NCBI GenBank assembly: GCA_034190085.1
Contig: JAXHTS010000058.1
Span: 1-64,000, forward strand
DNA length: 64,000 bases
Source of the DNA: Spirochaetota bacterium
GTDB taxonomy: Bacteria; Spirochaetota; UBA4802; JAFGDQ01
Direction: 5' to 3'
The notes under the pieces are model-generated. The model did no database searches and was not told where the DNA came from. It worked only from the letters and a program-made list of their open reading frames with translations. The position numbers and the translations under genes are program-made. Shown here piece by piece: positions 42,892-62,372 of the stretch; the stretch's first letter is position 1; the number at the start of each line of letters is the position of its first letter.

Positions 42892-44307
42892 ATGAGTAGT
42901 GTAGCTGAAGTACTTAGTATAATTAAGAAGGAAGATATAAAGGTAATCGATCTTAGATTTATGGATTTCCCTGGCCTCTGGCAGCATTTTGCTATTCCAG
43001 CGCGGGAAGTAGATGAAGGTATGTTTGAGGATGGCCTTGGATTTGATGGTTCCAGTATAAGGGGTTGGCAGGCAATAAATGAGTCGGATATGCTTGTCAT
43101 GCCTGTTGCAGAATCTGCCTTTATTGATCCATTCCTCGAGCATAAAACCCTTGTGATGATATGCAACATTGCAGACCCAGTCACAGGGGAGGATTACACT
43201 AGAGATCCTAGAAATATTGCTAAAAAGGCTGAAAACTATTTGACAGGTCAGGGTATTGGAGATGTCGCCTATTTTGGCCCTGAGGCTGAATTCTTTATAT
43301 TCGATGATATCAGATTTGATCAGAACGAGCATGAAGGATATTATTTCATCGATTCAGTTGAAGGGAGATGGAATACCGGTCGTGTAGAAAATCCGAATCT
43401 TGGTTATAAACCAAGATATAAGGAGGGATATTTCCCGGTACCTCCAACGGATAGTCTTCAGGATATTCGAAGCGAAATGATGCTCATATTAGAAAGTCTT
43501 GGCATTGAGATAGAGGCTCAGCATCATGAGGTTGCCACAGGCGGTCAGGGTGAGATCGATATGAGATTCTCGCCACTTGTGGAGATGGGCGATAAACTAC
43601 TGAAATATAAGTATGTTATCAAAAATGTGGCAAGAAAATATAATATGACTGTCACATTTATGCCTAAACCACTCTTTAATGATAATGGAACCGGAATGCA
43701 TACACATATGTCGATCTGGAAGGATGGCAAGAATTTATTCGCTGGGAACGGATATGCAGGGATGTCAGAAGTTGCGATGTATGCCATAGGCGGCATATTA
43801 AAGCATGCTCCAGCATTGCTAGCATTTACTAATCCCACGACCAATAGCTATAAAAGGCTTGTGCCAGGTTTTGAGGCGCCTGTAAAGCTGGCATACTCCA
43901 GCAGAAACAGAAGCGCTGCTGTGAGGATACCTATGTATTCACAATCAGAGAAGGCAAAGCGATTTGAGTTCAGGTGCCCTGACCCAAGTTGTAATCCATA
44001 TCTTGCATTTTCAGCAATGCTGATGGCTTCTATTGACGGCATTCTGAATAAGATTGAACCAGGATCGCCTTTAGATAAGAACATTTATGATATGCCTCCT
44101 GAAGAATTGGCAGAGGTGCCAACTACTCCCGGATCTTTAAGAGAATCATTGGCAGCACTTGAGAATGATCATGAATTTCTTTTAAAGGGGGATGTTTTTA
44201 CAAGAGATGTAATAGAGACCTGGATCTCATATAAAATGGAGAATGAAGTACAGGCGCTTGATCTTCGTCCTCATCCATGGGAATTTGCGATGTATTACGA
44301 TATCTAA
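42892..44307 (+). CDS. glnA: Glutamine synthetase type I (adenylylatable)
   Basis: 471 residues, GSI-beta length. Metal and substrate motifs: [30 protein letters not shown], the [10 protein letters not shown] ammonium/glutamate region, NRSAAVRIP and [16 protein letters not shown]. The adenylylation tyrosine is in [10 protein letters not shown], matching E. coli Tyr397, and glnE is the next gene. It makes glutamine from glutamate, ammonia and ATP. SD AGGAG before the ATG. A hairpin with T6 follows the stop, so expression of glnE may be partly uncoupled. Confidence 0.97.
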
Positions 44308-44379: not shown

Positions 44380-44421
44380 GTTTTACTTGATTTTAATAGT
44401 AAATTGAGTGAAATAATCATT

Positions 44422-47400
44422 ATGAAAAGAATAATTACTTATGAAACAATTAAATCCGCATGTCCGGATATTGATGACAATATAATAAATGATCACCTGG
44501 CAAGGCTCGAAAGCGATTATTTTTATTATTTTTCAAGGAATAATATATTTGATCACCTTAGGGCAGTATCTGAACTCTCTTATAAAAATCCTGTAAAGGT
44601 AATAACCAATTTATCATCTGATGAATGTATAACATGTACAGTGATAGCTAGAGATTATCCTGCTGTATTTTCGCTTATTACTGGTATACTCTCAAGTTTG
44701 GATTATAGGATTATTTCTGGTAAAATATTTACCTACAAAAAGGATTCTGTTTCTCCCCACACTCCAAAACCAGGATTTAAGAAAAATCCTTCAGCAGCCC
44801 TTAAAAAGACTACTAATAAAAGAATTATTATTGATCACTTTTATGGCAGACTCTCTACAGGGATTTTTTCTCATATCTGGGTCAATGAGTTGACCGACTG
44901 TCTCAATTCAGTCTTTAAATTGATTGAAAAGGATGATAGCGGGTTATCTGCTGCAAGGAGGAGTGTAAATGAACTGGCAGCCAGAAAGCTGGAAAATATT
45001 ACAGAATGCCAATCGATATTATACCCAGTAAAAATTGAAATAGATAACAAAAATGAATTTTACACAGAGATGAGGGTCGTCTCTGAGGATACCCCCTTTT
45101 TCCTCTATGCATTATCAACAGCACTCAGCATGCAGAATGTCCAGATTGAGCATGTTAATATAGATACAATCCAGATGCAGGTTATTGATGAGTTCAGAAT
45201 TGTAAATTCCTTGGGCAGCAAGATAGAAAACGAAGATACAATCAATAGAATTAAATTATCCGTATTGCTGACAAAACAATTTACCTCTTTTATAGGGACT
45301 GCCCCGGATCCCTATGTGGCCCTATCACGTTTTGAGTATCTTACAAGTGAGATATTGTCCCTTCCTGAGAAGAGCAACTGGCTGGAGATACTTTCAAATC
45401 CACATTTGATGAAAGATCTTGCAAGACTCTTAGGCGCAAGCGATTTTCTATGGGAGGATTTTATTCGACTTCAATATGAGACCATCCTTCCGCTTTTAGA
45501 AGCTAAAGGTGAGAAAAAAGGATTTACAGAAACCGCTTCATCCATTTCGGATAGATTGTCCAAGGCCATGAAGGGGGTTGAGGATAGGGGGGAACAACGG
45601 AGGATACTGAATGAATTCAAGGATATAGAAATTTTTCATATTGATCTTGATCATATACTCAACCCTGAAACAGACTTTCGTATCCTTTCCGAACGTTTAA
45701 CTATGCTTGCGGAAGTTGTTATTGATACTGTGGCAGGATATTCATATAAGCATCTAAGTGATATCTATGGATACCCAACAACTGTAGCAGGTTTGTATGA
45801 TAAATTTTGTATATTTGGATTGGGGAAATTCGGGGGCGCAGCATTGGGCTATGCCTCAGATATTGAAATTCTTCTTGTCTATAGCGACAATGGCCAAACT
45901 GATGGAACAGATTCAATAAAGAATTCGGATTTTTTTAATCGCCTTGTTAAAGAGATAATCGGTTTTATTAAAGCAAAAAAAGAGGGAATTTTTCGTCTCG
46001 ATTTACGTCTTCGTCCCTATGGGATTGACGGGCCTCTCGCGTGTAGTCTAGATTCTTTCTGCAAATACTATGGAGCTGGAGGAGACGCTCATTCTTATGA
46101 GAGATTAGCGCTGGTGCGCATGCGTCCTGTGGGGGGTGACGTTGACTTTGGAGAGCAGCTTATTCGTTTAAGAAATGAATTTATTTATTCAACAAATAGT
46201 ATTGATATAAAGGAGCTTCATAATCTCAGGCGTAAGCAATTTATAGAGAAGACGCAGGAGGGAAGAATAAACGCAAAATACTCACCTGGCGCGTTAGTGG
46301 ATATTGAATATACTGTACAGATTTTGCAGATAATGTTCGGCAGAGAGAATTTATCTCTGAGGACGCCGCGCATTCATGATGCCTTGAATGCTTTAGCCGA
46401 GCATGGAATCCTGGAATGGGTTGAGGTGGTCGATGTTATCGGAGCATACGATTTTTTCAGAGAGTTAATAAATGGTCTCAGGATGCTCAGGGGTTCCGTA
46501 GAAGATCTCTTTCTACCTTCAATTGATTCAATCGAATATGGCCATCTCGCTCGGCGTATGGGGTATAAAGTTGAAGGAGACCTGAGCCAGGTAAAGCAGC
46601 TTCATATAGAATTTGAAACCAGATCTGCCATGGTTCGAACATTTATTGAACGACATTTCGGTGGGACTATACTTCTTGGAGACGATGTGCGAAATATTGC
46701 AGATTTGATATTGTCGAAGGATCTTTCTGATTCGATATCCAGAAAAATCTTATCAGATTATGGTTTTAAAAATCCTGAAAGGGCGATTGTCAATCTTAAG
46801 AATCTAGCTAGTGGCAACAAACAGGAACTTTTTGTAAGGATTGCTGTTCTGGCTACAGATATACTGCTGCATAAACCTGATCCTGATATGGCACTGAACA
46901 ATTGGGAACGTTTTATAGATGTAATATCTGATCCGGTCAGGCATTTTCAGGAAATGTTGTCTCAACCTAAGAAATTGGATATCCTTTTAAGCATATTTTC
47001 AACGAGTCAATATCTGTCAGATACCCTCATAAAAAATCCTGATTTTCTTGAATGGCTTATCCTACCAAAAAATCTATACAAATCATTAAATAAAACAGAG
47101 ATTGAAGATGAATTAAAAAAGCTTTACCAGTCCTCTGAGTCACATGGAGACTGGCTGAATAGTATTCGTCTAATAAAGAAGAGGGAAATCCTGAGGATAG
47201 GAACAAGGGATATATGCCTGAATATGCCGCTTCCAGATATAACAGAGGACCTTTCTGTTCTGGCAGAGGCTTTTATTGATGTGGTTTCCGGAATTAACCT
47301 ATCTTTATTGAATACTGAGGATGCATCTGTTCACTGGGATAATATTTTAAATAATTTTTCGATCATGGCATTTGGAAAACTCGGTGGTAATGAGCTCAAT

Positions 47401-48246
47401 TATAGTTCTGATATTGATATAATGCTTATCTATGATGCAGGTGACAATTCTACGGGTATGCAGTCTGATGAAGCTTTTTATGGAAATATATACTCAACGA
47501 TTATAGAAAAATTATTATCTGATTTATCCTCACATACAGAGGAGGGGCATGCCTACAGGGTTGACCTGAGATTAAGACCTTATGGTAGTTCAGGGGCTCT
47601 GGCATATTCTATAGAAAATCTTGTTGATTATTATAACAACATAGCGGATCTTTGGGAGATTCAGGCGCTGCTTAAACTGCGCCCGGTGGCCGGGAATCTC
47701 CCAGTGGGATATAAATTTATTGATAAAGTCAAAGAGATTTATAATAACAGGATTACCCATAAAAGCGTGATCGAATCAATCAGGAGGCTTCGTTCATTAG
47801 CGGTTAAGGAAAATTCATCAAGAATTCTATCAGGAATTGATATAAAAAACGGTATAGGTGGCATACGGGATATCGAATTCCTGGTTCAGGGTCTTCAGCT
47901 AATCAATCTTCCATCCAATTCAGGGTTGTTAGAGGCAAATACCCTCAAAGCATTGACTGTTCTTAAAAAAATCAATATTTTAAATCAGGATGTTGTTAAA
48001 AGTCTAAGGGAGGAATATATTTTTTTGAGAAAGGTTGAGCATTATCTGCAGTTGTATGAAGACAGGCAGGTTCATTCATTGCCTGCTGATCCAGTAAAAT
48101 TGGAGGCTTTGGCAAAAAGTATGCTTGGTATTGATGCAAAAGCCCCTCAATTTATGAGTAAACTAAAGGATTATCAGCATAGAATTAGAGAGGCATACGA
48201 CAGATATTTAATTCCGCATAACGATAACGAGGTTTCCCATCAATAG
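44422..48246 (+). CDS. glnE: GlnE adenylyltransferase/adenylyl-removing enzyme with N-terminal ACT-like domains
   Basis: 1274 residues from the ATG at 44422 (a TTG at 44404 is an in-frame alternative; neither has a strong SD). The C-terminal ~950 residues are a complete GlnE: two nucleotidyltransferase domains, each with G-K-x-G-G and S-D-I (FGLGKFGGAALGYASDIEIL near 470 and MAFGKLGGNELNYSSDIDIM near 985) and DLRLRPYG after each, plus linker helical domains. Upstream, ~320 extra residues contain two ACT-like units: CTVIARDYPAVFSLITGILS near 80, and DTPFFLYALSTALSMQNVQI near 230. Classical E. coli GlnE (946 residues) lacks these. It modifies and de-modifies GlnA at Tyr; the ACT pair may sense an amino acid directly instead of relying only on PII. 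Confidence 0.92.
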   Translation: MKRIITYETIKSACPDIDDNIINDHLARLESDYFYYFSRNNIFDHLRAVSELSYKNPVKVITNLSSDECITCTVIARDYPAVFSLITGILSSLDYRIISGKIFTYKKDSVSPHTPKPGFKKNPSAALKKTTNKRIIIDHFYGRLSTGIFSHIWVNELTDCLNSVFKLIEKDDSGLSAARRSVNELAARKLENITECQSILYPVKIEIDNKNEFYTEMRVVSEDTPFFLYALSTALSMQNVQIEHVNIDTIQMQVIDEFRIVNSLGSKIENEDTINRIKLSVLLTKQFTSFIGTAPDPYVALSRFEYLTSEILSLPEKSNWLEILSNPHLMKDLARLLGASDFLWEDFIRLQYETILPLLEAKGEKKGFTETASSISDRLSKAMKGVEDRGEQRRILNEFKDIEIFHIDLDHILNPETDFRILSERLTMLAEVVIDTVAGYSYKHLSDIYGYPTTVAGLYDKFCIFGLGKFGGAALGYASDIEILLVYSDNGQTDGTDSIKNSDFFNRLVKEIIGFIKAKKEGIFRLDLRLRPYGIDGPLACSLDSFCKYYGAGGDAHSYERLALVRMRPVGGDVDFGEQLIRLRNEFIYSTNSIDIKELHNLRRKQFIEKTQEGRINAKYSPGALVDIEYTVQILQIMFGRENLSLRTPRIHDALNALAEHGILEWVEVVDVIGAYDFFRELINGLRMLRGSVEDLFLPSIDSIEYGHLARRMGYKVEGDLSQVKQLHIEFETRSAMVRTFIERHFGGTILLGDDVRNIADLILSKDLSDSISRKILSDYGFKNPERAIVNLKNLASGNKQELFVRIAVLATDILLHKPDPDMALNNWERFIDVISDPVRHFQEMLSQPKKLDILLSIFSTSQYLSDTLIKNPDFLEWLILPKNLYKSLNKTEIEDELKKLYQSSESHGDWLNSIRLIKKREILRIGTRDICLNMPLPDITEDLSVLAEAFIDVVSGINLSLLNTEDASVHWDNILNNFSIMAFGKLGGNELNYSSDIDIMLIYDAGDNSTGMQSDEAFYGNIYSTIIEKLLSDLSSHTEEGHAYRVDLRLRPYGSSGALAYSIENLVDYYNNIADLWEIQALLKLRPVAGNLPVGYKFIDKVKEIYNNRITHKSVIESIRRLRSLAVKENSSRILSGIDIKNGIGGIRDIEFLVQGLQLINLPSNSGLLEANTLKALTVLKKINILNQDVVKSLREEYIFLRKVEHYLQLYEDRQVHSLPADPVKLEALAKSMLGIDAKAPQFMSKLKDYQHRIREAYDRYLIPHNDNEVSHQ

Positions 48247-48285: not shown

Positions 48286-50061
48286 TTAACTGAGCTTTTC
48301 CCTTAATATCTCATTTGCCATCCCTGGATTGGCCTTCCCATTAGTGGCTTTCATCACCTCCCCAACAAAGAAGCCCATTATTTTGGTCTTACCGCTTCTA
48401 TACAAATCAACCTGGGATGGATTCTTCTCAAGAATCTCATCAACTATCTTCTCAATAGCATCTGGATCAATGATCTGTTTAATCCCTTCCTGGTCAATAA
48501 TCTCAATCAATCCCTTATTCGTGGCAAAGGCCCTTTTTATCACGTCCTTGCCAATCTTGCCGCTTATTTCTCCGCTATTAATCTTCTTGAGAAACTCTGA
48601 TAAATCTGCTGGTTGAATATGCATATTCTGAATATCGTTATCAATGTAGGATAATATCTCACTAAAAAACCAGTTTGCCAGTATTCTGGGCTTATCATAG
48701 ATCTTCAGTACCTCCTCAAAGAAATCAGCATAGTCCGGATTGATCATGAATAAACGGGCCTCGTCATTGTTAAAGCCGTATTCCTCTTTGTATGTCTTCT
48801 TCCTTTCCAGAGGCAAAAGGGGTAATCTATCTTTAAGGCCATTGATCCATTCATCAGTTAATTCAAGGGGCAACAGATCAGGATCGGGGAAATATCTATA
48901 ATCATGGGATTCCTCTTTACTTCTCATCAGATATGTCTTCTGAGCGCTATCATCCCATAATCTTGTTTCCTGTTCAATAGGAATGCCTGCTTTTTTCATC
49001 TTCCTCTGGCGGTCAATCTCATAATCCAGGGCTTTTTCAATTGCCTTAAAGGAGTTCATATTCTTAATTTCAGTTTTAACCCCCAGTTCAGCGCTTCCCA
49101 CAGGTCTTATAGACACATTGGCATCACAGCGCAGGCTGCCCTCTTCCATATTGCCGTCGCATATGCCCAGGGAAACCAGTATGGCCCGTATCATCATAAC
49201 ATACTCCCTGGCCTCCTTTGGACTTGATATATCCGGCTCAGTGACAATTTCGAGAAGAGGAACGCTGCATCTGTTAAAGTCTATAGCGCTCGCCTTTGAT
49301 CCCCAGATGCCTGGCGCTCCCACATGAACCATCTTTCCAGCGTCCTCTTCCATGTGGATGCGGTTTAATCTGATCCTTTTAACAGGCCCATCGACCTCCA
49401 CATCAACATATCCGCCGCTGCAGATAGGCTCCTCAAATTGGGAAATCTGGTAACCCTTGGGCAAATCAGGATAAAAATAATTTTTCCTGGCAAAGATGGA
49501 GCGATTATTTACTGTTGATTTTGCAGCCAGCCCGGCAAGTATTGCCATATTAACAGCCTCTTTATTTAGAACAGGCAATACACCGGGGTGTCCGGAGCAT
49601 ACAGGACAGGTATTGCTGTTTGATTCCCTGCCGAATTCAGTAGAGCATTTACAGAACAATTTTGTCTTCGTATTCAACTGGGCATGCACCTCTAATCCAA
49701 TTACCGCCTCATACTCAATGCCCTTCTCTGTAATTACATTCCGTTCCAGGGACTTTTCATCAATTCCTGTCCTCCCTTTTTGGGGAGGGGCAATATAATT
49801 TGTACCAAGAACGGATGGACCATTTTTAATGAGCATATCCAGATCAGCCCATGTCTCAGATTCATCCTCTCGCAGATAGGGATCTTTGTAAACAGCATGA
49901 CTGACCGGTTTCATGTCCTGGCAGGGGGCATTATTGATTACCCTGGCATATTCCAAAAAATCCTCTAACTCCTTTTCGAGCTGACCCTTTTCTTCTTCGC
50001 TTACATCAAAAGTTGCAAGTCCAATCAGTTTCTCAATATTTATTGTTCCTTTTTCTTTCAT
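48286..50061 (-). CDS. gatC-gatB: GatC-GatB fusion: Asp-tRNA(Asn)/Glu-tRNA(Gln) amidotransferase
   Basis: 591 residues in one frame. Residues ~1-97 are GatC: NIEKLIGLATFDVSEEEKGQ, LEDFLEYARVIN, DMKPVSHAVYKDPYLREDE. Residues ~115-591 are a complete GatB: YEAVIGLEVHAQL, zinc cysteines in CKCSTEF...CPVC, HPGVLPVLNKEAV, RNYFYPDLPKGYQISQ-like region, HMEEDAGK, and the tail ISGKIGKDVI...VIDQEGIK. GatC and GatB are separate genes in nearly all bacteria. The transamidase converts misacylated Asp-tRNA(Asn) (or Glu-tRNA(Gln)) to Asn/Gln-tRNA, using ammonia from GatA. It is the second gene after the GatA-AspRS fusion, 17 bases apart, so all subunits are made as two chains from one transcript. Confidence 0.95.
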   Translation of the reverse strand: MKEKGTINIEKLIGLATFDVSEEEKGQLEKELEDFLEYARVINNAPCQDMKPVSHAVYKDPYLREDESETWADLDMLIKNGPSVLGTNYIAPPQKGRTGIDEKSLERNVITEKGIEYEAVIGLEVHAQLNTKTKLFCKCSTEFGRESNSNTCPVCSGHPGVLPVLNKEAVNMAILAGLAAKSTVNNRSIFARKNYFYPDLPKGYQISQFEEPICSGGYVDVEVDGPVKRIRLNRIHMEEDAGKMVHVGAPGIWGSKASAIDFNRCSVPLLEIVTEPDISSPKEAREYVMMIRAILVSLGICDGNMEEGSLRCDANVSIRPVGSAELGVKTEIKNMNSFKAIEKALDYEIDRQRKMKKAGIPIEQETRLWDDSAQKTYLMRSKEESHDYRYFPDPDLLPLELTDEWINGLKDRLPLLPLERKKTYKEEYGFNNDEARLFMINPDYADFFEEVLKIYDKPRILANWFFSEILSYIDNDIQNMHIQPADLSEFLKKINSGEISGKIGKDVIKRAFATNKGLIEIIDQEGIKQIIDPDAIEKIVDEILEKNPSQVDLYRSGKTKIMGFFVGEVMKATNGKANPGMANEILREKLS

Positions 50062-50078
50062 TATTAACTTCCATCTAT

Positions 50079-52973
50079 CTATGGGGATAGCCGATTTATA
50101 TCCCTCGGGAAGAGGGAGGCCTCTCGAATATTTTTCAGATTTAGAATTTTCATTGTCAGCCTTTCCAATCCCATACCCAGTCCGCCATGCGGCGGCATGC
50201 CAAACCTGAAGATATCCATGTAATGACTAAAATCACGTGGATTGCAGCCAAAACTTAAAACATTCTCCCTGAGCATATCATAATCATGAATCCGCTGTCC
50301 CCCTGTAGTAATTTCAATTCCATTGTAGAGCAAATCAAAGCTTCTGGTGTAACCAGGCAATCGCTCATCGGGCATTGTGTACATAGGTCTCTTTTTTACA
50401 GGATAACCGATTATATAAACAAGGGATGAGTTTTTCTCCCTTTCAAAATATTCACATATAACCCTTTCACCCTCAGGTGAAATGTCACCCTCTTCCATAT
50501 CCCTTATACCGAATGACTCTACAATTTCCAGGGCCTCCAGAAAGTGAATTCTGGGAATGATTTCAGGCAAATCAATTGGGGAACCAGCCTCTTCTAATTC
50601 ATATGCAAACTTTTCTTTCAATTTTTTGAAAATGTATTTTATAAGCCCTTCCTGCATATCAATAATATCCTGCTCATCCTTTATAAATCCCATTTCATAA
50701 TCCAGGCTCACATACTCATTTAAATGTCTCACTGTGTTATGAAGCTCTGCCCTGAATACCGGACCGATCTCAAATACCCGTTCAAATCCGCTCCCTACCA
50801 TGGTCTGTTTATAAAACTGTGGCGATTGGGCTAGAAATGCTGAGTTTCCAAAATATTTTATCTCAAATATATTACTGCCCCCCTCAGTTCCGGAAGAAAT
50901 GATCTTGGGTGTTTTTATTTCAATAAATTTATGTTCTGAAAGGTATTCTCCAAAGAGCTTAACTATCTCTGACTGGATTCTGAATGTATTTAGAATTTTC
51001 GGATTCCTTACTGAAATAGTTCTATTATCAAGTATTGTCGGGAGATTTATGTTGCCTGAGTTATTATTAATGCTGATAGGCAGATCATTAGCAGCCCTGC
51101 CAATAATATTTATTGTCTTTACCTTTATTTCAATATTGTTATATGGACTACGCTCTTCCTTTGTCACTTGCCCATAGATTTCAACAACCGTTTCGAGATT
51201 TAAACGTTCCTTAAGTCCATCCCCCTCAATAACAAGCTGTGTGAAACCACTCCTGTCCCTTAAATCGTAAAACTCAATGCCGCCAAGGTTCTTCTTTCTA
51301 TGAATCCATCCTGCGATTTTAATATCTTTATTCACATAGTCTTCAAGATCATTACAATATACCCTGTCAGAATAATTTTTATCTCTTTGCATATATGTTT
51401 TGGATATTTTGTTAATATCTTCCTGTGTATATATTGAGGTTGCTTCCTCTCTCCCGCCTTCTTCCCTGGCGCCTGTCTTGCAGACGATTCTATCCTTATC
51501 AGCAAACACCTCTTCGAGAGGGGGTATGAACTCATCTCTGAGCTGCTTTTCAAAGGCAAAAGCAATTTTCAGCAGATTTTCTTCTTCTAGCGCCCTGCCC
51601 ATCAACTGAAGACCTACAGGCATATCATTAACCATACCTGAAGGCACTGAAATCGCCGGCAGTCCCGCCAGATTGGGCAGTACTGTGGTAACGTCTGACA
51701 AATATATTTTCATAGGATCTTTCAGGCTCTCGCCAATGGGAAAGGCTATCTCAGGGGTGGTGGGCATGGCAATAGCATCAAATGTCTCAAATATTTTTTT
51801 TAATTCCTCTCTGAGGTAAGCCCTCACCCTCTGGGCCTTTCTATAGTATTCATCGTAATACCCTGAAGAAAGCACAAAATTACCCAGAAGAATTCGTTTT
51901 TTAACCTCTTTTCCAAAACCGACTGAACGCGTCATGCGAAGCATCTCCTGATAATCACTCTGCCTGCTGTTTCGATAGCCGTATTTTACTCCATCATATC
52001 TGGAAAGGTTTGAAGAGGCTTCGGCTGTTGCAATAAAATAGTATGCAGAGGTTGCGTATTGAAGGGCGCTAAATGAAACATCTTCAATTTGAGCGCCCAG
52101 CCCTTTTAACATCCCTATGGATTTCTTAAATTGCTCCCGAATTTGCGGAGACACTCCCTCCTGGAAGAGTTCCGGCAATACTGCTATGCGCATTCCAGCT
52201 ATATCCTGATCCAATTTAGCTGTATAATCCTTTGAGGGTATGTCCAGGGATGTGGAATCATTTTTATCATACCCGCTTATTGCATTCAACAGAATAGCAA
52301 TCCCATATACATCTCTGGATAAAGGACCAATCTGATCTAATGAGGAGGCATAGGCTGTCAATCCATACCGTGAAACAAGGCCGTATGTTGGCTTTAAACC
52401 GAAAATCCCGCAAAACGCTGCTGGCTGCCGTATAGAACCCCCGGTATCGCTTCCTATGGCCAGGGGAACCATGCCTGATGACACAGCCGCTGCAGATCCG
52501 CCTGATGAACCTCCAGGTACCCTGTTTAAATCCCAGGGATTTCTTGTATGCTTGAGGCTTGAGTTTTCGCAGGTTGATCCCATTGCGAATTCGTCCAGAT
52601 TGGTCTTACCTATGATAATCCCACCTTTTCCCTTGATCATTTTGATTGTTGTTGCGTCATATGGGGGATAATAGTTCTCTAAAATTTTAGAAGCGCAGGT
52701 GGTTGCAATACCCATAGAATGGATGTTGTCTTTTATAGCTATGGGTAAGCCGTCAATCAGGCTTTTTTGAGCCTTGTTCTGCCACCGCGCATCGCTCTCC
52801 TCTGCCTGTTTAATAAGAGTCTCCCTGCTATATAGTGAGATGAAGCACTCCAGAACAGGATCATATTTAACTATCTGTTCCAGGTAAGCCTTTATCAATT
52901 CCACACAGGTTATCTCTCTCTTTTTTATAAGAGAGGTTATCTCTTTAATATTTTTACTTACTATTCTGTCCAT
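50079..52973 (-). CDS. gatA-aspS: GatA-AspRS fusion: amidase subunit joined to archaeal-type aspartyl-tRNA synthetase
   Basis: 964 residues without a break. Residues 1-~485 are GatA: catalytic triad Lys81 (PIAIKDNI), cis-Ser156 (GGSSGGSAAAV) and nucleophile Ser180 (DTGGSIRQPA), plus the EYYRKAQRVR region. A ~45-residue polar linker follows, then ~530-964 is an archaeal/eukaryal-type AspRS: OB-fold anticodon domain (KIAGWIHRKKNLGGIEF), motif 2 FRAELHNTVRHLNE and motif 3 GLGMGLERL, ending SLFPRD. His558 occupies the position where discriminating enzymes have Trp, and Pro610 lies near the second determinant; both suggest a non-discriminating AspRS that also charges tRNA(Asn). Fusing it to the amidase would channel Asp-tRNA(Asn) directly to amidation. 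It is the first gene of the operon. Confidence 0.95.
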   Translation of the reverse strand: MDRIVSKNIKEITSLIKKREITCVELIKAYLEQIVKYDPVLECFISLYSRETLIKQAEESDARWQNKAQKSLIDGLPIAIKDNIHSMGIATTCASKILENYYPPYDATTIKMIKGKGGIIIGKTNLDEFAMGSTCENSSLKHTRNPWDLNRVPGGSSGGSAAAVSSGMVPLAIGSDTGGSIRQPAAFCGIFGLKPTYGLVSRYGLTAYASSLDQIGPLSRDVYGIAILLNAISGYDKNDSTSLDIPSKDYTAKLDQDIAGMRIAVLPELFQEGVSPQIREQFKKSIGMLKGLGAQIEDVSFSALQYATSAYYFIATAEASSNLSRYDGVKYGYRNSRQSDYQEMLRMTRSVGFGKEVKKRILLGNFVLSSGYYDEYYRKAQRVRAYLREELKKIFETFDAIAMPTTPEIAFPIGESLKDPMKIYLSDVTTVLPNLAGLPAISVPSGMVNDMPVGLQLMGRALEEENLLKIAFAFEKQLRDEFIPPLEEVFADKDRIVCKTGAREEGGREEATSIYTQEDINKISKTYMQRDKNYSDRVYCNDLEDYVNKDIKIAGWIHRKKNLGGIEFYDLRDRSGFTQLVIEGDGLKERLNLETVVEIYGQVTKEERSPYNNIEIKVKTINIIGRAANDLPISINNNSGNINLPTILDNRTISVRNPKILNTFRIQSEIVKLFGEYLSEHKFIEIKTPKIISSGTEGGSNIFEIKYFGNSAFLAQSPQFYKQTMVGSGFERVFEIGPVFRAELHNTVRHLNEYVSLDYEMGFIKDEQDIIDMQEGLIKYIFKKLKEKFAYELEEAGSPIDLPEIIPRIHFLEALEIVESFGIRDMEEGDISPEGERVICEYFEREKNSSLVYIIGYPVKKRPMYTMPDERLPGYTRSFDLLYNGIEITTGGQRIHDYDMLRENVLSFGCNPRDFSHYMDIFRFGMPPHGGLGMGLERLTMKILNLKNIREASLFPRDINRLSP

Positions 52974-53567: not shown

Positions 53568-54803
53568 ATGGAAGATAAAATTAAGACTATTGGTGAAGAT
53601 CTTTACAGATTTCAATCCGCAATAAACGAGGAAGGTTCTACCCTTGGGGATTATATTAAGGAAAATTACACGAGCAAATGGATATCCGATAATCTGTTCA
53701 ATGTGATGGCAATTCGAACTACATTTGTGAATGCCATGAATCAATTCCTTGTTAATGAGGGGCTCTTTAATCTTGAAAAGGTTATGCTGAGTATTATTAC
53801 AGATCCATTGGCGCATGATATTGAACATACACCTGCTATCGACTACAAGGGGCATACGTACCTAACAACACATAGCATGATTTACAGTAAGTTCCTAGCA
53901 TGTTCAAATCCTGACATTAAAGGCATATTTGTTGATTCACCGAATATCCGTCTTGAGATCGAGAGTCCTATTGGAGAACAGAGGGGAAGATATCTTGCTG
54001 ATTTTTCTCAGATGGATGTTGAATTTAGACGCAATAGGGGAATAACCATTGATGATTATTATAATCAGGTGTCAATGGTGTTCGATGCCCTTGATGAAGA
54101 TATGGGAAAGGCAAAGAATTTTTTTGAAAGGATGATGGTTCATGTATGCGAGGAATTGAATAAAAGAAATAGCGATAATCTAAAAGATCTTGGCGTGATA
54201 TTGGAGGTGCCAAGGATTCCATTCCCTAGCTTCCATAAAGACGAATGTGTAGCAAAATTTGGAGCAAGAGGACTTGAAGAAGAGGTTGGGAAGATGACAG
54301 ATGCCCAGTTCTTCTGGATAACAGGTTTATTGAGGGAGAACTATGATCTAATCTATCCGTATCTATCTCAGAATGGATCTAAGGTCAATCTACGAGATGC
54401 TAAATCTCGTAATATCTTTAATTATGATATTTTGGCAAAGAGTATAGACGCGAAGTCAGGCAAGCAAGCGCCGGCAAAGGAGATCATGTCAGGAGCGATC
54501 AGGGAATGGCTTTTTGAACCGATTATCGAAAGAATAATTGATAATAGGGTTCTGCCATCTCGCCCGAATATTGTTGATGGGAATATTGAAAATATTGATG
54601 AACTTGGTGGGTATGGGCCATTTCTATATTTTGCCTCAATGAAGGATTCAACGGGTAAACCGATTTTCCCTGACACTGCTGGAGGCGGGATCGGTATTGA
54701 GCGCACCCTCTATTCAATTCTACGTGGCGAAAAGATTAAAATCATAGATGATGTAACCTATTTTGGGAAAAATCCAGATTCACATCCTATTTTTTTATAC
54801 TAA
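53568..54803 (+). CDS. Archaeal-type asparagine synthetase A (class II aaRS-like)
   Basis: 411 residues. The catalytic core is that of a class II aminoacyl-tRNA synthetase without an anticodon-binding domain: HTPAIDYKGHTYLTTHSMIY, SPNIRLE (motif 2 Arg), LADFSQMDVEF and motif 3 GGGIGIERTLYSIL. This matches the archaeal asparagine synthetase AS-AR, an AspRS/AsnRS paralogue that makes free Asn from Asp, ATP and ammonia. It is not the E. coli AsnA sequence type. At 411 residues it is longer than the ~300-residue archaeal enzyme, with an insertion around 165-265. It lies divergently from gatA-aspS; its 3' end overlaps asnB by 17 bases. Confidence 0.82.
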   Translation: MEDKIKTIGEDLYRFQSAINEEGSTLGDYIKENYTSKWISDNLFNVMAIRTTFVNAMNQFLVNEGLFNLEKVMLSIITDPLAHDIEHTPAIDYKGHTYLTTHSMIYSKFLACSNPDIKGIFVDSPNIRLEIESPIGEQRGRYLADFSQMDVEFRRNRGITIDDYYNQVSMVFDALDEDMGKAKNFFERMMVHVCEELNKRNSDNLKDLGVILEVPRIPFPSFHKDECVAKFGARGLEEEVGKMTDAQFFWITGLLRENYDLIYPYLSQNGSKVNLRDAKSRNIFNYDILAKSIDAKSGKQAPAKEIMSGAIREWLFEPIIERIIDNRVLPSRPNIVDGNIENIDELGGYGPFLYFASMKDSTGKPIFPDTAGGGIGIERTLYSILRGEKIKIIDDVTYFGKNPDSHPIFLY

Positions 54804-56742
54804 GGGTAGAAAAATTATCTTGATACCTCTCAATAAAATGATAATGCAACAATTGCAGAGAAACAATACCCACCAAAGCCATGTCATCGCGTGCGCTGAT
54901 ATTTTTCCCACCCTTTTGTGAAAATTTTTTCAATAAATTTTTTACGCTCTCTGGTACAAAGTACCCGAATTTATCGATATTTTTCTCAGATATCATTGAT
55001 GAGGATATATTGTTGTTTTCTGTAAAACATTGACTTATTGGCGCGCGATAGGGTTGTTTTGGTCTGTTAATAATTGAACTGGGTAAGATCTGTTCAAAGG
55101 TTTTTTTCAATATGAATTTTTCATTCAGCACCTTTATTTTATATTTTGGCGGTATGGTGTTTGCAAATTCTATAACATTATGATCCAGAAATGGGAATCT
55201 CCCCTCTACAGAATTACCCATCATCATTCGATCGCCTTGAGATGAGAGCAGGTATCCTGCCATAAATAGGGATGACTCCAGATATTGAGCCCTGCAGAGC
55301 GGGTGCCATCTTCTTATCTCCGGATTTATATAATCTTCTAATTCCTGAAATATCAGATTATCATCAAAGGACTCTCTAAATTGGTTGTTGAAGAGCTGTT
55401 TTATCTGTGAGGTATTATTCCAACGGATGTTATGGGAATAATATTTATTATCTGTATCAGTGAGTCCCTTCTTAAAGAATAATTGCCAGAATCTTTCCGC
55501 CCTTTGATCCTTAGCGATATAGGGATATAATGACGAGAGGAGTTTGGGACGCCATCTGGAATTCGGATATTTTGCCCAGAAACGACGGATTTTATCCTCC
55601 TTAAAAATATTATAACCACCAAACATTTCATCAGCCCCTTCTCCGGTTAGCACTACCTTGATGTTATTATCCCGCACTAAACCTGATAACAAATAAAGCG
55701 GGGCAGGCGCAGTTCGAATCATCGGTTTTTCAGCATACCATACCACGTCAGAATATGCATTTCCAATATTATTGTAATCAGCTTCAATAATTCGATGGTC
55801 AGTATTTAAGAAATCTACCATCTCCATCTGGTAGGGGCGTTCATCATAGTCCGCATCATGAAATGCGACTGAGAAAGTAATAAGATCATTATTATGATAT
55901 TTTTTTACAAGCGATGTGATGATTGAGGAGTCGATGCCACCGCTTAGATAGGCTGCAACAGGCACATCCGCACGAAGGCGAATGGTTACCGCATCATATA
56001 GTTTTTCATTCAATCTTTCAACATAGTAGGATAGGGGTTTATCTTCGAAATCTCTTTCGTCTGGATATTGATAATCCCAGAATTTGTAACTCTTAATTCC
56101 ACCTTGCGAAACAGTAAGAAAGTGGCCCGGAGCAAGTTCATTTATGTCTTTAAATACTGTCCTTGGTGGAATGTTAACCCAGAAGCTGAATATTTGATCA
56201 ATGCCATGAGGATCAAGTTCTGGTTTTATCCCAGGATGACAGAAAATGGCCTTCATCTCAGAGGCGTATAACAAGCTGCCATCATTCAAAATAGAATAAA
56301 AGAGTGGACGTATTCCAACGCGGTCTCTCGCTAATATTAACTCTTTATTCGTTTCATCCCATAGCGCAATGCCAAACTGACCATTGAGATGTTGAAGGAA
56401 GTCCTTGCCATAATCTTCATAAAGATGAACAAGAACCTCTGTATCGCTATGGGTGGAAAATACATGACCCTTTTTAATCAATTGTTCTCTTAACTCAATA
56501 TAATTGAATATCTCTCCGTTCAGAGTCACGCAAATTGTTTTATCCTCATTGTAAATCGGCTGTTTCCCGCCTGATAGATCAATTATACTAAGCCTGCTTT
56601 GCCCAAGTGCGATATCATTGTTTATGTGGAAACCTGTTTCATCTGGCCCCCTATGCCTGAGCGATTCAATCATCTTTTCTAGTACTGATGAATCGACTGG
56701 ATTTCGAGCTCTTGTGTTATAGATACCTGCTATTCCGCACAT
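54787..56742 (-). CDS. asnB: Glutamine-hydrolysing asparagine synthetase
   Basis: 651 residues. Class II glutaminase domain begins MCGIAGIYN with the catalytic Cys2; HRGPDETG, SIIDLSGGKQPI and NGEIFNYIEL follow. The synthetase domain carries the ATP pyrophosphatase loop LSGGIDSSIITSLVKK, with ...FSVAFHDADYDERPY and VVLTGEGADEMFGGYNIF. It makes free asparagine from aspartate using glutamine amide nitrogen. Polysaccharide-linked AsnB-like paralogues exist, and glycan genes begin 600 bases on, so a modification role is possible; the full motif set favours real Asn synthesis. Convergent overlap of 17 bases with the AS-AR-like gene. Confidence 0.93.
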   Translation of the reverse strand: MCGIAGIYNTRARNPVDSSVLEKMIESLRHRGPDETGFHINNDIALGQSRLSIIDLSGGKQPIYNEDKTICVTLNGEIFNYIELREQLIKKGHVFSTHSDTEVLVHLYEDYGKDFLQHLNGQFGIALWDETNKELILARDRVGIRPLFYSILNDGSLLYASEMKAIFCHPGIKPELDPHGIDQIFSFWVNIPPRTVFKDINELAPGHFLTVSQGGIKSYKFWDYQYPDERDFEDKPLSYYVERLNEKLYDAVTIRLRADVPVAAYLSGGIDSSIITSLVKKYHNNDLITFSVAFHDADYDERPYQMEMVDFLNTDHRIIEADYNNIGNAYSDVVWYAEKPMIRTAPAPLYLLSGLVRDNNIKVVLTGEGADEMFGGYNIFKEDKIRRFWAKYPNSRWRPKLLSSLYPYIAKDQRAERFWQLFFKKGLTDTDNKYYSHNIRWNNTSQIKQLFNNQFRESFDDNLIFQELEDYINPEIRRWHPLCRAQYLESSLFMAGYLLSSQGDRMMMGNSVEGRFPFLDHNVIEFANTIPPKYKIKVLNEKFILKKTFEQILPSSIINRPKQPYRAPISQCFTENNNISSSMISEKNIDKFGYFVPESVKNLLKKFSQKGGKNISARDDMALVGIVSLQLLHYHFIERYQDNFSTLSIKK

Positions 56743-57357: not shown

Positions 57358-58896
57358 ATGACAACTTACAGAGCGTTAACCAATTTTCAATGGTCTGTAT
57401 CTCTATTCATAGGAGCGCTATGCCTTCGATTGTTTCATCTTGATAGCATGAGTCTTTGGCAAGATGAGGGTGCAACGGCTTTTCAGATTAATCATACTAC
57501 TCTACAAGATGCTTATCGTTCAGTAATGAGTGAAGGATTTATGGCTCCCTTGAGTCATCTTTCCATATATCTTTTTAGCAAAATTGCTGGATTAAGTGAA
57601 TGGGCGCTTAGATTCCCTTCTGCTTTATATGGTTCTCTATCTGTTGTTGTGCTTTATTATATAGGGATGTTGCTATTTAAAAAACGAAGCGCTGTTATTG
57701 GCGCTATACTGTTCCTTTTATCACCCCTTCATATCTGGTATTCTCAAGAAGCAAGGATGTATTCATTGTGGGTGCTGCTAACACTTCTCTTATTATTTCT
57801 ATTTCTCAAGATATTAAAACTTAGTACTCTACGAACGTGGATCCTCTTTACACTCATTGCAGTATCTATGTTATGGACACATCTAAATTCAATATATATA
57901 TTTGCTGCAATTGGTATCTATTTTCTACTTTATATAAAGAGATATACAAAAGAATTTATAAGTTTTATCGGTTGTATGTTTGTAATTACTATAAGCTATA
58001 TTCCTGGTATATTAGCCTTCTTTAATGCAGAGTTTTCTAATATTGGCGGTATGCATAAAACTGGTATTCTTGATTTAATATATGCAATTTTTACTTTTAA
58101 TGTTGGAACTAGTTTCGGGCCTCCTATCACGGAAATCAGGTCACTTCATGCTCTATATGGAGCAGAATCCTTGAAAATAATTTTTCAAGAATATGGTATT
58201 ATTCTTATTCCTTCAGCACTTTTTCTTTTATATCTTATACTTTGTACTTTTATATATTATATTAAGGATCAAGATATTGAGAACAGGCTAGGCTATTTGA
58301 TACCTTTCTTTATACCTTCACTTTTTATTTTCTTAACTGCCTTTTTCTCTAATAGTGTACCATTTAATGTTAGATATATCCTATACGCTCTACCCTTATA
58401 CCTGCTTCTTATAGGACATGGAATTGAAAAGATGAATATCTATACTAGATTTATCTCAATTTTAATATTATTATTGATAACAGGATTCTCACTATACAAT
58501 CATTATTATAATCCCATATATAGCAAGGTCGATTTGAGGGGGGCTATTAGATATCTTGATGTGAATATTAAAGACAAAGATGCAGCTCTCATCTTTCATG
58601 AGAGTGTTCTGAGAGTAGCTCAATATTATGCCCCTTCAGGTAGATTAAATGACTTCTGTATGCCCTTTGATATTACAGTTGATAAGGCTATTGGAAATAC
58701 ATCTTTTCATAGTAGAATGTTTTTTGTGAAATCCATAAGAATTCAGAAGTATAGAGATGGGGTTGTGGATAAAACCTATAAATATTATTTTAATAATTTT
58801 AAATTAGAAAAGAAAGTCAATTTTAACAAGATTGAAATAACTATTTTTAGAAATCATAATCTTAATCCTGTTGTCCTTTCTCGGGAAAGTATATAA
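57358..58896 (+). CDS. GT39/PMT-type membrane glycosyltransferase
   Basis: 512 residues with about ten membrane helices. The first periplasmic loop carries SLWQDEGATAFQ, the Asp/Glu motif of GT-C enzymes that use polyprenyl-phosphate sugars. HIWYSQEARMYSLW follows in the usual place (the 'SQEARMY' block is typical for ArnT/PMT-like proteins of bacteria). A ~110-residue soluble C-terminal domain faces the periplasm. It would transfer a sugar from a lipid carrier onto a protein, lipid A or glycan outside the membrane. The DPM1-like GT2 encoded 420 bases downstream on the opposite strand could supply the polyprenyl-phosphate sugar. SD AGGTAA before the ATG. Confidence 0.87.
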   Translation: MTTYRALTNFQWSVSLFIGALCLRLFHLDSMSLWQDEGATAFQINHTTLQDAYRSVMSEGFMAPLSHLSIYLFSKIAGLSEWALRFPSALYGSLSVVVLYYIGMLLFKKRSAVIGAILFLLSPLHIWYSQEARMYSLWVLLTLLLLFLFLKILKLSTLRTWILFTLIAVSMLWTHLNSIYIFAAIGIYFLLYIKRYTKEFISFIGCMFVITISYIPGILAFFNAEFSNIGGMHKTGILDLIYAIFTFNVGTSFGPPITEIRSLHALYGAESLKIIFQEYGIILIPSALFLLYLILCTFIYYIKDQDIENRLGYLIPFFIPSLFIFLTAFFSNSVPFNVRYILYALPLYLLLIGHGIEKMNIYTRFISILILLLITGFSLYNHYYNPIYSKVDLRGAIRYLDVNIKDKDAALIFHESVLRVAQYYAPSGRLNDFCMPFDITVDKAIGNTSFHSRMFFVKSIRIQKYRDGVVDKTYKYYFNNFKLEKKVNFNKIEITIFRNHNLNPVVLSRESI

Positions 58897-59316
58897 GACA
58901 TAGATGTAGTGACCATAATTTTCTGAAAAGCTTGATTTTTTATGTTTATGGTTTAGCATATCGAAATTTTAATCATTTTTCAAATGAGCGTTTTTTGTAA
59001 AATGTCGGTTTTATAACCATGTAAGGATTCATAGAGGCTGGGTTTCGAGACCTATCCTAAGCGAAGCCGAAGGGATTTAGGTGAGGGTAAGGATAAAAAG
59101 AGGGAAGTAGAGGGCGAAAAAGCTATTTTATACCTATATCGGTTCTTGGATTTTACATACATCACAGATTCTTCTAATCCTACCATACAGGGATGTATCT
59201 AGTGCAAGCGAGCACAAGAGTTACAAGCGCCTGTCTTTGACAGGCAAAGGAGTAAATCTTATTTTAAATATTATCTCAATTATATTATTTCCTTATAATT
59301 ATTACTATTTATAATT
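58897..59316. other. Intergenic region with dispersed-repeat-like segment
   Basis: 420 bases with no gene. The part 59048-59090 (CCTAAGCGAAGCCGAAGGGA core) resembles the 'TCCTGAGCGAAGTCGAAGGA' type of dispersed repeat common in bacterial genomes. A compact hairpin GCCTGTC-TTT-GACAGGC lies at 59229-59245. Neither has a confirmed second copy within this window. Confidence 0.45.
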
Positions 59317-60258
59317 CTATTCAAATGATTTTTTTATGGTATATTGAGGTTTTTTATTTTGAGAAAGAAATATTCTACCCACATATTCACCAATCATTCC
59401 TAAGGCTATGAGTTGAATTCCTGCAAAGATAGAAATAAAGATGGTTATTGTTGCCCATCCGACTGGCAATTCTGGATTTAATATTTTTTCCACAAAGGTG
59501 ATTATAGCAAACACGAGCCCAAATAATGAAAACAAAAATCCAATAATTGTTGCTATTCGTAACGGTAGGATAGAAAAATTAACAAACATATTTAACCATA
59601 AAGAGACAAGTTTTTTAAGTGTATAGCCGGATTCACCTATCTCTCTCTTCTGATGTTTGACATTTATTACTCCCACCTTATCTGTCGTTCGTAAAATTAA
59701 ACCATCAATATATGGATAAGGAAGATCATATTTTATTATTTCATCAACGATGAATCGGTTCAGAATTTTAAAGCTTGAAAGATACAAATTGCGTGGTTTG
59801 TTAAGCATGATATTAGCAACTTTATCATTAAACCAACTCCCAAAATTTCTAAAACGTGAATGTTCCTTTTTCTCGTAATAAGTATAAATAACATCATTTT
59901 TATTATTGATTGCGGCGTTGATTAATGTTTTCACTTCAGTTATTGGATTTTGGAAATCATCATCCATGATAACCACAAAATCACCTCGAGATTTATTAAG
60001 CCCAGCCATAACTGCATTATGTTCACCTACATTCTTTGATAGTGAAAAAAATCGAACGATGCCTTGAAATTGATGATAAAGTCTTATACACTCATGCTCT
60101 GAATCATCAGGTGAGTTATCATTTACAAGAATTATTTCGATTGTAAACAACTCAGTTATTGTATTAATCAATTCATTAACAACTCTCCCAATAGTTGCCT
60201 CTCCTTTATAGACAGGAATTACAACTGAGATAAACGAATTAGTGCTAATTGAATTCAT
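59317..60258 (-). CDS. DPM1/GtrB-like polyprenyl-phosphate glycosyltransferase
   Basis: 313 residues. GT2 domain: VVIPVYKGEATIGRVV, LVNDNSPDDS, the acidic metal site IMDDDFQNP, and a LYLSSFKILNRF acceptor loop. Two C-terminal membrane helices (~225-285) are separated by a short loop with GWATI. This is the layout of GtrB/ArnC enzymes, which load a sugar onto undecaprenyl phosphate on the cytoplasmic face. The start overlaps the aminotransferase gene by 14 bases, implying co-translation. A GT39-type transferase nearby could use the product. Confidence 0.88.
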   Translation of the reverse strand: MNSISTNSFISVVIPVYKGEATIGRVVNELINTITELFTIEIILVNDNSPDDSEHECIRLYHQFQGIVRFFSLSKNVGEHNAVMAGLNKSRGDFVVIMDDDFQNPITEVKTLINAAINNKNDVIYTYYEKKEHSRFRNFGSWFNDKVANIMLNKPRNLYLSSFKILNRFIVDEIIKYDLPYPYIDGLILRTTDKVGVINVKHQKREIGESGYTLKKLVSLWLNMFVNFSILPLRIATIIGFLFSLFGLVFAIITFVEKILNPELPVGWATITIFISIFAGIQLIALGMIGEYVGRIFLSQNKKPQYTIKKSFE

Positions 60259-61327
60259 TAATAACCTTCACAATTGTCTTTAATTCATCTGTATTTAATT
60301 CTGGGAAAATTGGAAGACTTAAAATAGTGTCCGCAAATAATTCTGTATTTTCAAAACATTCGTTTTGTTGATATGGATATGCTTTTTGCTTGTTTATCGG
60401 AATTGGATAATGAATCAATGATTGAATTTTTGCTCTCTTTAAGTGCATGAGTAAATCATCCCTTTTATGAGTTCTAACTACAAATAGATGATAAACGCAT
60501 TGACCATAAGAATGTTCAACTAAGCATTCAACAGTATTTAGGTATTGCTGGTAAAAATAAGCAATTTGGCGACGTTTCTCATTCCATTGTTTGAGGTATT
60601 TGAGTTTCACTCTTAATATTGCAGCCTGAAGTTCGTCTAATCTGCTATTTACACCATTTAATGTATGCTCATAACCAGTTTTTTTCCCATAATTCCGAAG
60701 CAGCAGCAATTTATTATAAATATTTTCATCATTTGTGGTAATAGCGCCACCATCACCATAAGCTCCAAGATTTTTTGTCGGATAGAATGAAAAGGCGGAA
60801 CATGTTCCATTTGAACCTACATATTTATTTTTATAAGTTGCCCCAGCTGCTTGAGCGCAATCTTCAATTATACTTAGATGATTTTGATCAGCCAGTTGTA
60901 AAATTGGATCCATATTACAACTCTGTCCGTATAAATGAACAGGGATTATTGCTTTTGTCTTGTGATTTATTTTTTTCTCGATTTTCTGCCAATCAATAAG
61001 TCCATCTTTTACAGAAATATCAACCACAACTGGAATTGCTCCAGCCCTCATAATCCCTGTGATAGTGGGATAAGCTGTCATATTTGATGTAATGACTTCA
61101 TCACCATTTCCAATATCCAGAGCCATTAATGACAAAGTAATTGCATCAGTTCCTGAAGCTACTCCAACACAATATGATACTCCAATATAATTAGCAAATT
61201 CATTTTCAAACTGGCATCCCTCATCACCGAGTATAAACCATCCCTTATTTAGCACGTTTTGAACTGCATTATCAATTTCATTTTTAATTGATTCGTATTG
61301 ACGAGTAAAATTATTGAATACAATCAT
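60245..61327 (-). CDS. DegT/DnrJ/EryC1-family sugar aminotransferase
   Basis: 360 residues, PLP fold type I. Motifs: YCVGVASGTDAITLSLMAL, PVHLYGQSCNMDPI, EDCAQAAGA, the Schiff-base Lys in FYPTKNLGAYGDGGAI, and NSRLDELQAAILRVK. The family transaminates UDP/dTDP-keto-sugars, or acts as a dehydratase when Lys is His; here Lys is present. It should make an amino-deoxysugar for the surface glycan. It lies between the epimerase and the DPM1-like gene in one minus-strand operon (31 bases after the epimerase). Confidence 0.9.
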   Translation of the reverse strand: MIVFNNFTRQYESIKNEIDNAVQNVLNKGWFILGDEGCQFENEFANYIGVSYCVGVASGTDAITLSLMALDIGNGDEVITSNMTAYPTITGIMRAGAIPVVVDISVKDGLIDWQKIEKKINHKTKAIIPVHLYGQSCNMDPILQLADQNHLSIIEDCAQAAGATYKNKYVGSNGTCSAFSFYPTKNLGAYGDGGAITTNDENIYNKLLLLRNYGKKTGYEHTLNGVNSRLDELQAAILRVKLKYLKQWNEKRRQIAYFYQQYLNTVECLVEHSYGQCVYHLFVVRTHKRDDLLMHLKRAKIQSLIHYPIPINKQKAYPYQQNECFENTELFADTILSLPIFPELNTDELKTIVKVINEFN

Positions 61328-61358
61328 GTGTCTTTTCTAAGTGGTAACTTTATGAATT

Positions 61359-62372
61359 TTAATTTGAGTCCCAATAAAATTCAGAATTATTTATATAATA
61401 GTCGATTGTCTTTCGAAGTCCTTCTTTTAGTGGTGTCTGTGGGGTCCAACCTAGTTTTGAGCGAATTTTACGATAGTCGCCATAATAATCCCCAATATCA
61501 ATGCTTTTTCGATCTGCTGGAAAGGGGATTATTTCATAATTTCCGCTACCGTTCAACTCAATAAGCATTTGAGCTGTATCCTTTAGGGTAATCGGATCTT
61601 CTGCTCCAAGATTGAAAATTTCTCCATTCGCATCTTCTGATATACCCGCTAGTAATAATGCGATTACTACATCATCTACATAATTAAAATCTCGAATTTG
61701 CTTTCCGTCACCATAAATATGGATTGGCTTCCCTTCGATCAACCGTTGGATCCATATTCCTAAAAAAGTTTGACGTGCATCTTTAACTCTCATTCGAGGG
61801 CCGTATGTGTTTGTTAATCGTAAAACCGTTGAACAGATATTATACACATTGTTATACACTAGATGATACCATTCACCTCCCATTTTATTGATGCCGTTTA
61901 CATCAACTGGACATAGAGGATGTCGTTCATCAACTGGAAGGTATTGAGGCTTTCCATACATTTGACGAGTGCTGGCAAAAATAATCTTTATATTGGGATT
62001 GTAATTTCTACAAGCCTCTAATATAAACAATTGAGAGCGTACATTAATATCTAAATCAGTATACGGATTGTTCATCGAATCAATATGACTCGTTTGTCCT
62101 GCAAGATTAAACAGATAATCCTGATCTTTTATCAAATATTTCATCGAGTGTTCATCACGCACATCTGAGATATTTATATGAACTTTATCTTTTATTGGTT
62201 CGATATTCCACAAATTGCCACCATATTCTGGGATTATACTATCAATCAACGTGACCTTTGCCCCAAGATGCACAAGTTTAAGAGCCAGATTTGAGCCGAT
62301 AAATCCGAGCCCTCCTGTAATAAGCACATTTTTCAAATTATAATTGGAAAATATATATTCTGAATTTGTCAT
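61359..62372 (-). CDS. NAD-dependent sugar-nucleotide epimerase/dehydratase
   Basis: 337 residues, extended SDR. Rossmann motif ITGGLGFIGSNLALKL, DSIIPEYGG, LFNLAGQTSH, the STRQMYG active-site Ser/Thr region and the late LGWTPQTPLKEGLRKTI. The usual catalytic Tyr-x-x-x-Lys reads NGINKMGGE, keeping Lys but with Asn in place of Tyr, a substitution I associate with one sub-branch of this family. It would prepare the nucleotide sugar for the aminotransferase downstream. First gene of the minus-strand sugar operon. Confidence 0.85.
   Translation of the reverse strand: MTNSEYIFSNYNLKNVLITGGLGFIGSNLALKLVHLGAKVTLIDSIIPEYGGNLWNIEPIKDKVHINISDVRDEHSMKYLIKDQDYLFNLAGQTSHIDSMNNPYTDLDINVRSQLFILEACRNYNPNIKIIFASTRQMYGKPQYLPVDERHPLCPVDVNGINKMGGEWYHLVYNNVYNICSTVLRLTNTYGPRMRVKDARQTFLGIWIQRLIEGKPIHIYGDGKQIRDFNYVDDVVIALLLAGISEDANGEIFNLGAEDPITLKDTAQMLIELNGSGNYEIIPFPADRKSIDIGDYYGDYRKIRSKLGWTPQTPLKEGLRKTIDYYINNSEFYWDSN

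Follow-up and report, generated by a model that had tools for sequence, protein, structure and literature searches.

The asparagine transamidosome, whose own tRNA serves as its scaffold, is a classic textbook example of substrate channelling. A locus in the window analysed here (the whole stretch of 64,000 nucleotides of spirochaete DNA) raises the question of whether such a machine can also exist in nature with its synthetase and its ammonia-producing subunit on a single chain. A sequence-only reading had proposed that all of the subunits for tRNA-dependent asparagine formation are carried by two double proteins, encoded on the minus strand by genes 17 bases apart. Both reading frames were confirmed, with the 17-base gap lying at 50062–50078, and the assignment of the subunits was borne out by curated models and by conservation across families. 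Taken as a whole, the locus very probably encodes an Asn transamidosome in which four subunits have been covalently merged into two chains and which is dedicated to asparagine; the fused pair would represent a new form of the known particle. The genes and their parts are as follows.

50079–52973, minus strand: gatA-aspS2 fusion gene, a single open frame of 964 amino acids encoding a GatA amidase and an archaeal-type AspRS assigned as non-discriminating
51540–52973, minus strand: GatA part, residues 1–478, TIGR00132, with the amidase triad
51369–51539, minus strand: linker, residues 479–535, a variable part and then a conserved helix-like stretch at ~514–532
50079–51368, minus strand: AspRS part, residues 536–964, OB-fold H558 and P610, class II motifs R741 and R938
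48286–50061, minus strand: gatC-gatB fusion gene, a single open frame of 591 amino acids
49717–50061, minus strand: GatC part and linker, residues 1–115, PF02686, aligned to Staphylococcus aureus GatC (2df4_C)
48286–49716, minus strand: GatB part, residues 116–591, kinase/cradle, zinc-type site and YqeY tail

In a profile search of the 964-residue protein, residues 14–478 matched the GatA model TIGR00132 with 599.8 bits (cut-off 481), and the stretch from residue 536 or 539 to residue 964 matched the aspartate–tRNA(Asn) ligase models NF003483 (538 bits) and TIGR00458 (430 bits), both above their cut-offs. This half is archaeal-type and lacks a GAD domain. Residues 115–590 of the 591-residue protein matched the GatB model TIGR00133 with 575 bits, again above the cut-off, and the zinc-type site of GatB has the form Cys-X-Cys...CPVC. 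The GatC match is genuine but weak: PF02686 reaches 27.6 bits against a Pfam cut-off of 23 over residues 20–83, the window GatC falls below the cut-off of TIGR00135 (32 versus 47) and the GatC parts of two relatives (L038 and L127) lie slightly below the Pfam cut-off. GatA, GatB and GatC are thus all encoded by the fused pair, which makes the GatCAB set complete.

The window comes from a draft genome of 86 contigs, where an assembly or frame error might have joined separate genes. Fusions were searched for first in 148 relatives and then in 393 Spirochaetota, and 14 of the 393 genomes, that of the window included, proved to carry GatA-AspRS at full length and with no stop. Because the 13 other genomes were assembled independently and encode the same uninterrupted fusion (L009–L021, 58–67% identical to the window protein), the possibility of an undetected stop or frameshift, raised by the sequence-only reading, is dispelled, and the chance of such an artefact is negligible. 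In a fifteenth fusion genome (G105), GatA runs into the linker up to the end of one contig, and AspRS and GatC-GatB lie on another. The 15 genomes are spread over five families (f1, f7, f8, f21 and f33) and include Spirochaetes bacterium RBG_16_49_21 and RA.bin95. GatC-GatB forms one frame of 588–595 residues in all 14 fusion genomes in which it is readable; an apparent frame problem at the gene junction in G033 was dismissed, as the GatC part lies there in a run of N. In three genomes (G070, G080 and G099) GatC-GatB and GatA-AspRS are found on different contigs with other neighbouring genes, and GatC-GatB is fused there too, so that the two fusions are kept together without adjacency.

In quick trees calculated without bootstraps, the fused GatA parts form one clade (SH-aLRT 99), which also includes the Spirochaetales sequence L041, truncated by a contig end, and the decayed sequence L023. 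The fused AspRS parts in these trees likewise form one clade (SH-aLRT 99), separate from the AspRS2 of Lachnospiraceae, from the other archaeal-type AspRSs of f8, f21 and f33 and from unfused spirochaete AspRS2, and the subclades agree between the two halves. Since each half forms a single clade, the trees indicate that the GatA-AspRS fusion arose once; it is of single origin and conserved. A mixed alignment of GatA and AspRS (A2), in which the AspRS-only rows are probably misaligned, was left aside. Outside Spirochaetota, a scan of genome contigs gave no such fusion among the best 80 loci listed, and the full-length Lachnospiraceae matches among these are adjacent separate genes. The decayed copy (L023 1495–3196, genome G046) has stops in the linker and its contig ends soon after; G046 yielded no GatB.

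The catalytic residues, described earlier as visible in the window, proved to be conserved in the fused proteins. The GatA triad K81, S156 and S180, assigned by offset from K79, S154 and S178 of S. aureus GatA, is invariant across 13 fused proteins, and the class II motif arginines of AspRS (R741 and R938) are invariant among the fused proteins as well. An OB-fold His and Pro, as opposed to the Trp and Lys of a discriminating enzyme, mark a non-discriminating AspRS. H558 and P610 align with the His and the Pro, respectively, of 1N9W, the non-discriminating AspRS2 of Thermus thermophilus, whereas 1B8A/3NEL, the discriminating archaeal enzyme, has Trp and Lys at these positions. Both residues are invariant in alignment A4; in one fused protein (L021), P610 is replaced by Glu. 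Judged from these signatures, the AspRS half is predicted to be an archaeal-type, tRNA(Asn)-charging AspRS2.

A U1–A72 pair, which is required by GatCAB (PMC9976931; PMC4206432), is present in tRNA(Asn) in each of the seven fusion genomes in which this tRNA was found. In the window's own assembly (G000), which is rated 96% complete, no tRNA(Asn) was detected by family search, pattern search or BLAST, and a pattern match on contig C42 was rejected because it is not a tRNA. The tRNA(Asp) of this assembly has G1–C72 and its tRNA(Gln) has U1–A72; U1–A72 alone therefore does not exclude glutamine as a second duty.

The host gene set bears on what the fused complex serves. In G000 the fused GatA is the only amidase-family gene, and the genome also encodes AsnRS, GlnRS, LysRS, GluRS and a bacterial AspRS of 596 residues (AspRS, LysRS and GluRS being identified by family and sequence inspection). 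With GlnRS present, GatCAB is not needed in this genome for Gln-tRNA(Gln). Ten fusion genomes combine GlnRS with a single, fused GatB (G000, G002, G012, G021, G026, G033, G034, G038, G093 and G111), and four have no GlnRS but a second, unfused GatB (G059, G070, G080 and G099); G105, a broken assembly, has no detectable GlnRS and a fragment of a second GatB. GlnRS or a second GatB thus accompanies the fusion in 14 of 14 testable genomes, a small count of related genomes, and the contrast recurs within one family, f21 (G111 versus G059, G080 and G099). From this gene content, asparagine seems to be the sole task for which the fused pair is retained.

AsnRS scores above its cut-off in all 15 fusion genomes, which rules out the fusion as the sole route to Asn-tRNA(Asn). 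Given the AsnRS, GlnRS, bacterial AspRS and asnB-like gene of the host, which the sequence-only reading had not taken into account, the fusion would be an additional, dedicated route, by analogy probably one for making asparagine on tRNA as in Deinococcus and Thermus. The asnB-like gene (TIGR01536, a model that also matches relatives with other jobs) exceeds the cut-off in 11 of the 15 genomes and does not in G033, G038, G059 and G105. The supply of asparagine is consequently often redundant, and some of the latter four genomes may depend on the fused route alone for asparagine synthesis. In f8, f21 and f33 the fused AspRS is accompanied by another, stand-alone archaeal-type enzyme of ~445 residues (L177–L184), probably the housekeeping AspRS of these families.

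The linker between GatA and AspRS had been put at ~45 residues; measured from the end of GatA to the OB-fold of AspRS it comprises ~57 (residues 479–535). It is the least conserved part of the protein (amino-acid identity 0.38–0.77) and is variable up to residue ~512, after which the alignment of fused proteins displays a conserved helix-like stretch, Y(T/S)xxxIxxISxSYxxR (~514–532), with Y515 and Y527 invariant and I520 and S524 almost so. Its substitution rates (dN 0.22 and dS 0.64 in one close pair, dN 0.13 and dS 2.5 in another) give dN/dS below 1 and indicate purifying selection on the linker in both pairs. In AlphaFold2 models built on shallow alignments, the GatA part has pLDDT values mostly above 90 to residue ~300 and resembles GatA of 2df4/4wj3 (TM-score over target 0.95–0.96), the AspRS catalytic domain is poorly folded with low confidence, and a linker helix appears at ~517–534 in both models, also with low confidence; the models are uninformative as to how the domains are arranged. 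An internal start yielding free AspRS was ruled out: Met528, the sole in-frame ATG of the linker, is not conserved among the fused proteins, and no Shine–Dalgarno-like sequence precedes in-frame start codons within the linker.

Among characterized systems, the closest parallel is found in Deinococcus and Thermus, which use GatCAB with a second, archaeal-type AspRS to form asparagine on tRNA; the T. thermophilus host resembles ours in its AsnRS, GlnRS and bacterial AspRS as well (PMC4206432). The T. thermophilus transamidosome (3KFU) shares the combination of archaeal-type non-discriminating AspRS2 with GatCAB, but keeps AspRS2, GatA, GatB and GatC on separate chains, four in all compared with two in the spirochaete fusions, and PDB chain counts suggest 2 GatA to 4 AspRS, whereas the fusion would force a ratio of 1:1. 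The Pseudomonas aeruginosa transamidosome (4WJ3) also joins AspRS and GatCAB for Asn; it differs in its bacterial-type AspRS and separate subunits, and PDB chain counts suggest 4 GatA to 4 AspRS. As the fusion fixes a 1:1 ratio, the stoichiometry should resemble that of the Pseudomonas particle, although the AspRS is of the Thermus type. Among PDB chains, none joins GatA and AspRS. The nearest is chain C of 3AL0, from the Thermotoga Gln transamidosome, in which a synthetase is likewise covalently joined to a GatCAB subunit (GatC-linker-GluRS2); this chain, however, is engineered, uses GatC rather than GatA and belongs to the Gln system. A natural AspRS-GatC fusion in one frame, followed by gatA and gatB, was found in two metagenome-assembled genomes (MAGs).

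L063 5995–8166, Caldithrix sp. MAG: AspRS-GatC fusion, 723 amino acids
L082 8–1381, Clostridia MAG: AspRS-GatC fusion

These differ from the spirochaete proteins in their bacterial-type AspRS with a GAD domain, in having GatC as the partner, with GatA and GatB separate, and in their independent origin; fusion of AspRS to an amidotransferase has therefore arisen at least two times, with different subunits. The aspS2-gatC-gatA-gatB operons of Lachnospiraceae (for example Acetitomaculum, L047) hold the same four parts in one operon, including an archaeal-type AspRS2 with the non-discriminating His and Pro, but the genes are unfused and in another order. Unfused gatA-gatB-aspS2 genes also occur in two other spirochaete families (L173 2858–7100 and L174 1656–5719), with no recognizable gatC in these operons. 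No description of GatA-AspRS or GatC-GatB fusions was found in open-access papers, and the earlier statement that no well-studied example of this pair was known holds for the papers and solved structures searched.

A working scheme for the complex can be proposed. The AspRS part would charge tRNA(Asn) with aspartate, and the GatA part of the same chain would hydrolyse glutamine to yield ammonia. GatC-GatB would bind the acceptor end through U1–A72, and this end would swing from AspRS to GatB, which would activate the aspartyl side chain by phosphorylation and amidate it with ammonia from GatA. The ammonia would travel through the GatA–GatB channel, a known feature of GatCAB. The product Asn-tRNA(Asn) would then pass to the ribosome or release free asparagine on hydrolysis. 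Owing to the presence of AsnRS, and of GlnRS or else a second GatCAB, the complex would be spared glutamine and, relieved of this duty, be free to be fixed 1:1 with AspRS. The linkage of AspRS to GatA is covalent by sequence; the association of GatA-AspRS with GatC-GatB is predicted, as are the enzymatic activity, the hand-over within one particle and the use in asparagine supply. By analogy with known transamidosomes, the hand-over may proceed without release of misacylated Asp-tRNA(Asn).

It is also conceivable that the covalent linkage brought no gain, neighbouring genes having fused near-neutrally into proteins that work as an ordinary transamidosome. Operon neighbours often fuse, the remaining anatomy is ordinary and no part of the chain is less conserved than the linker; set against this, five families with 15 genomes keep the fusion along with a conserved linker motif, both fusions persist where the genes are not neighbours, and AspRS has been joined to an amidotransferase again in Caldithrix and in a Clostridia MAG, there through GatC and with an AspRS of bacterial type. 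On balance we regard near-neutral joining as a reading of some weight but somewhat doubtful. Cleavage of the fused chains at their linkers into ordinary subunits would suit a linker that is long, variable and modelled with low confidence, yet the conserved motif and the purifying selection in two pairs argue for an intact chain and a protease site is not known, which makes this outcome improbable. A general-purpose GatCAB that makes Gln-tRNA(Gln) as well as Asn-tRNA(Asn), and to which AspRS is simply joined, is very improbable: both duties are common for GatCAB and the tRNA(Gln) of G000 carries U1–A72, but the regular company of GlnRS or a second, unfused GatB disfavours a dual Asn/Gln enzyme.

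The reading of a merged transamidosome dedicated to asparagine can be extended to a stronger form, in which GatA-AspRS and GatC-GatB would make up a stable 1:1 particle free of tRNA, with EF-Tu-shielded hand-over of Asp-tRNA(Asn), and would act mainly as an asparagine factory, since AsnRS already serves translation. We consider this extension tentative and rather unlikely; if true, the covalent linkage would replace tRNA(Asn) as the scaffold. A natural single chain of synthetase and ammonia subunit offers a test of the purpose of the tRNA scaffold, its covalent bond sets the stoichiometry, and the two proteins provide a tractable system for structural and kinetic work. That the fusion goes with relief from glutamine duty yields a concrete rule, open to checking, on when a machine of this sort can be locked to one task.

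The fused genes lie among genes of nitrogen and asparagine metabolism.

42892–44307, plus strand: glutamine synthetase GlnA, type I, PF00120/PF03951, a source of the amide donor, given as context
44404–48246, plus strand: GlnE, glutamine synthetase adenylyltransferase, 1280 amino acids, PF03710/PF08335, convergent with gatC-gatB
53568–54803, plus strand: class II synthetase paralogue with distant similarity to archaeal asparagine synthetase A (AS-AR), in divergent orientation to gatA-aspS2
54787–56742, minus strand: asnB-like glutamine-dependent asparagine synthase, TIGR01536, 516 bits, above the cut-off

The AS-AR-like protein matches 3P8T (E value 4.6e-11) and PRK06462 (122 bits, far below the cut-off) and is a possible third asparagine-making enzyme; its gene adjoins the fusion in G000, G002 and G038. 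Glutamine synthetase is a neighbour in G000, G093, G105 and L041, the last with a cluster of GlnK-like and glutamine synthetase genes beside the fusion. A glutamine synthetase of ~700 residues, assigned to type III from its length and from inspection of the sequence, lies directly upstream in G093, G105 and the decayed G046. AsnRS adjoins the fusion in G038 and G059. Neighbours of this kind are missing at the loci of genus g12 and of G111, G070, G080 and G099. The neighbouring genes, where present, point to assimilation of nitrogen into asparagine. A T-box or other RNA regulator near the operon was looked for, and the window gave no Rfam match. Further along the window, at 57358–62372, lie sugar and polysaccharide genes, namely those for a PMT-like glycosyltransferase, a family 2 glycosyltransferase, a DegT aminotransferase and an NAD epimerase. 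Elsewhere in the assembly, besides an ordinary tRNA(Val, UAC), another sequence (L172, C30:143194–143266) resembles tRNA(Val, UAC) but has an unusual T-loop, GTATCGA, and is not called by ARAGORN.
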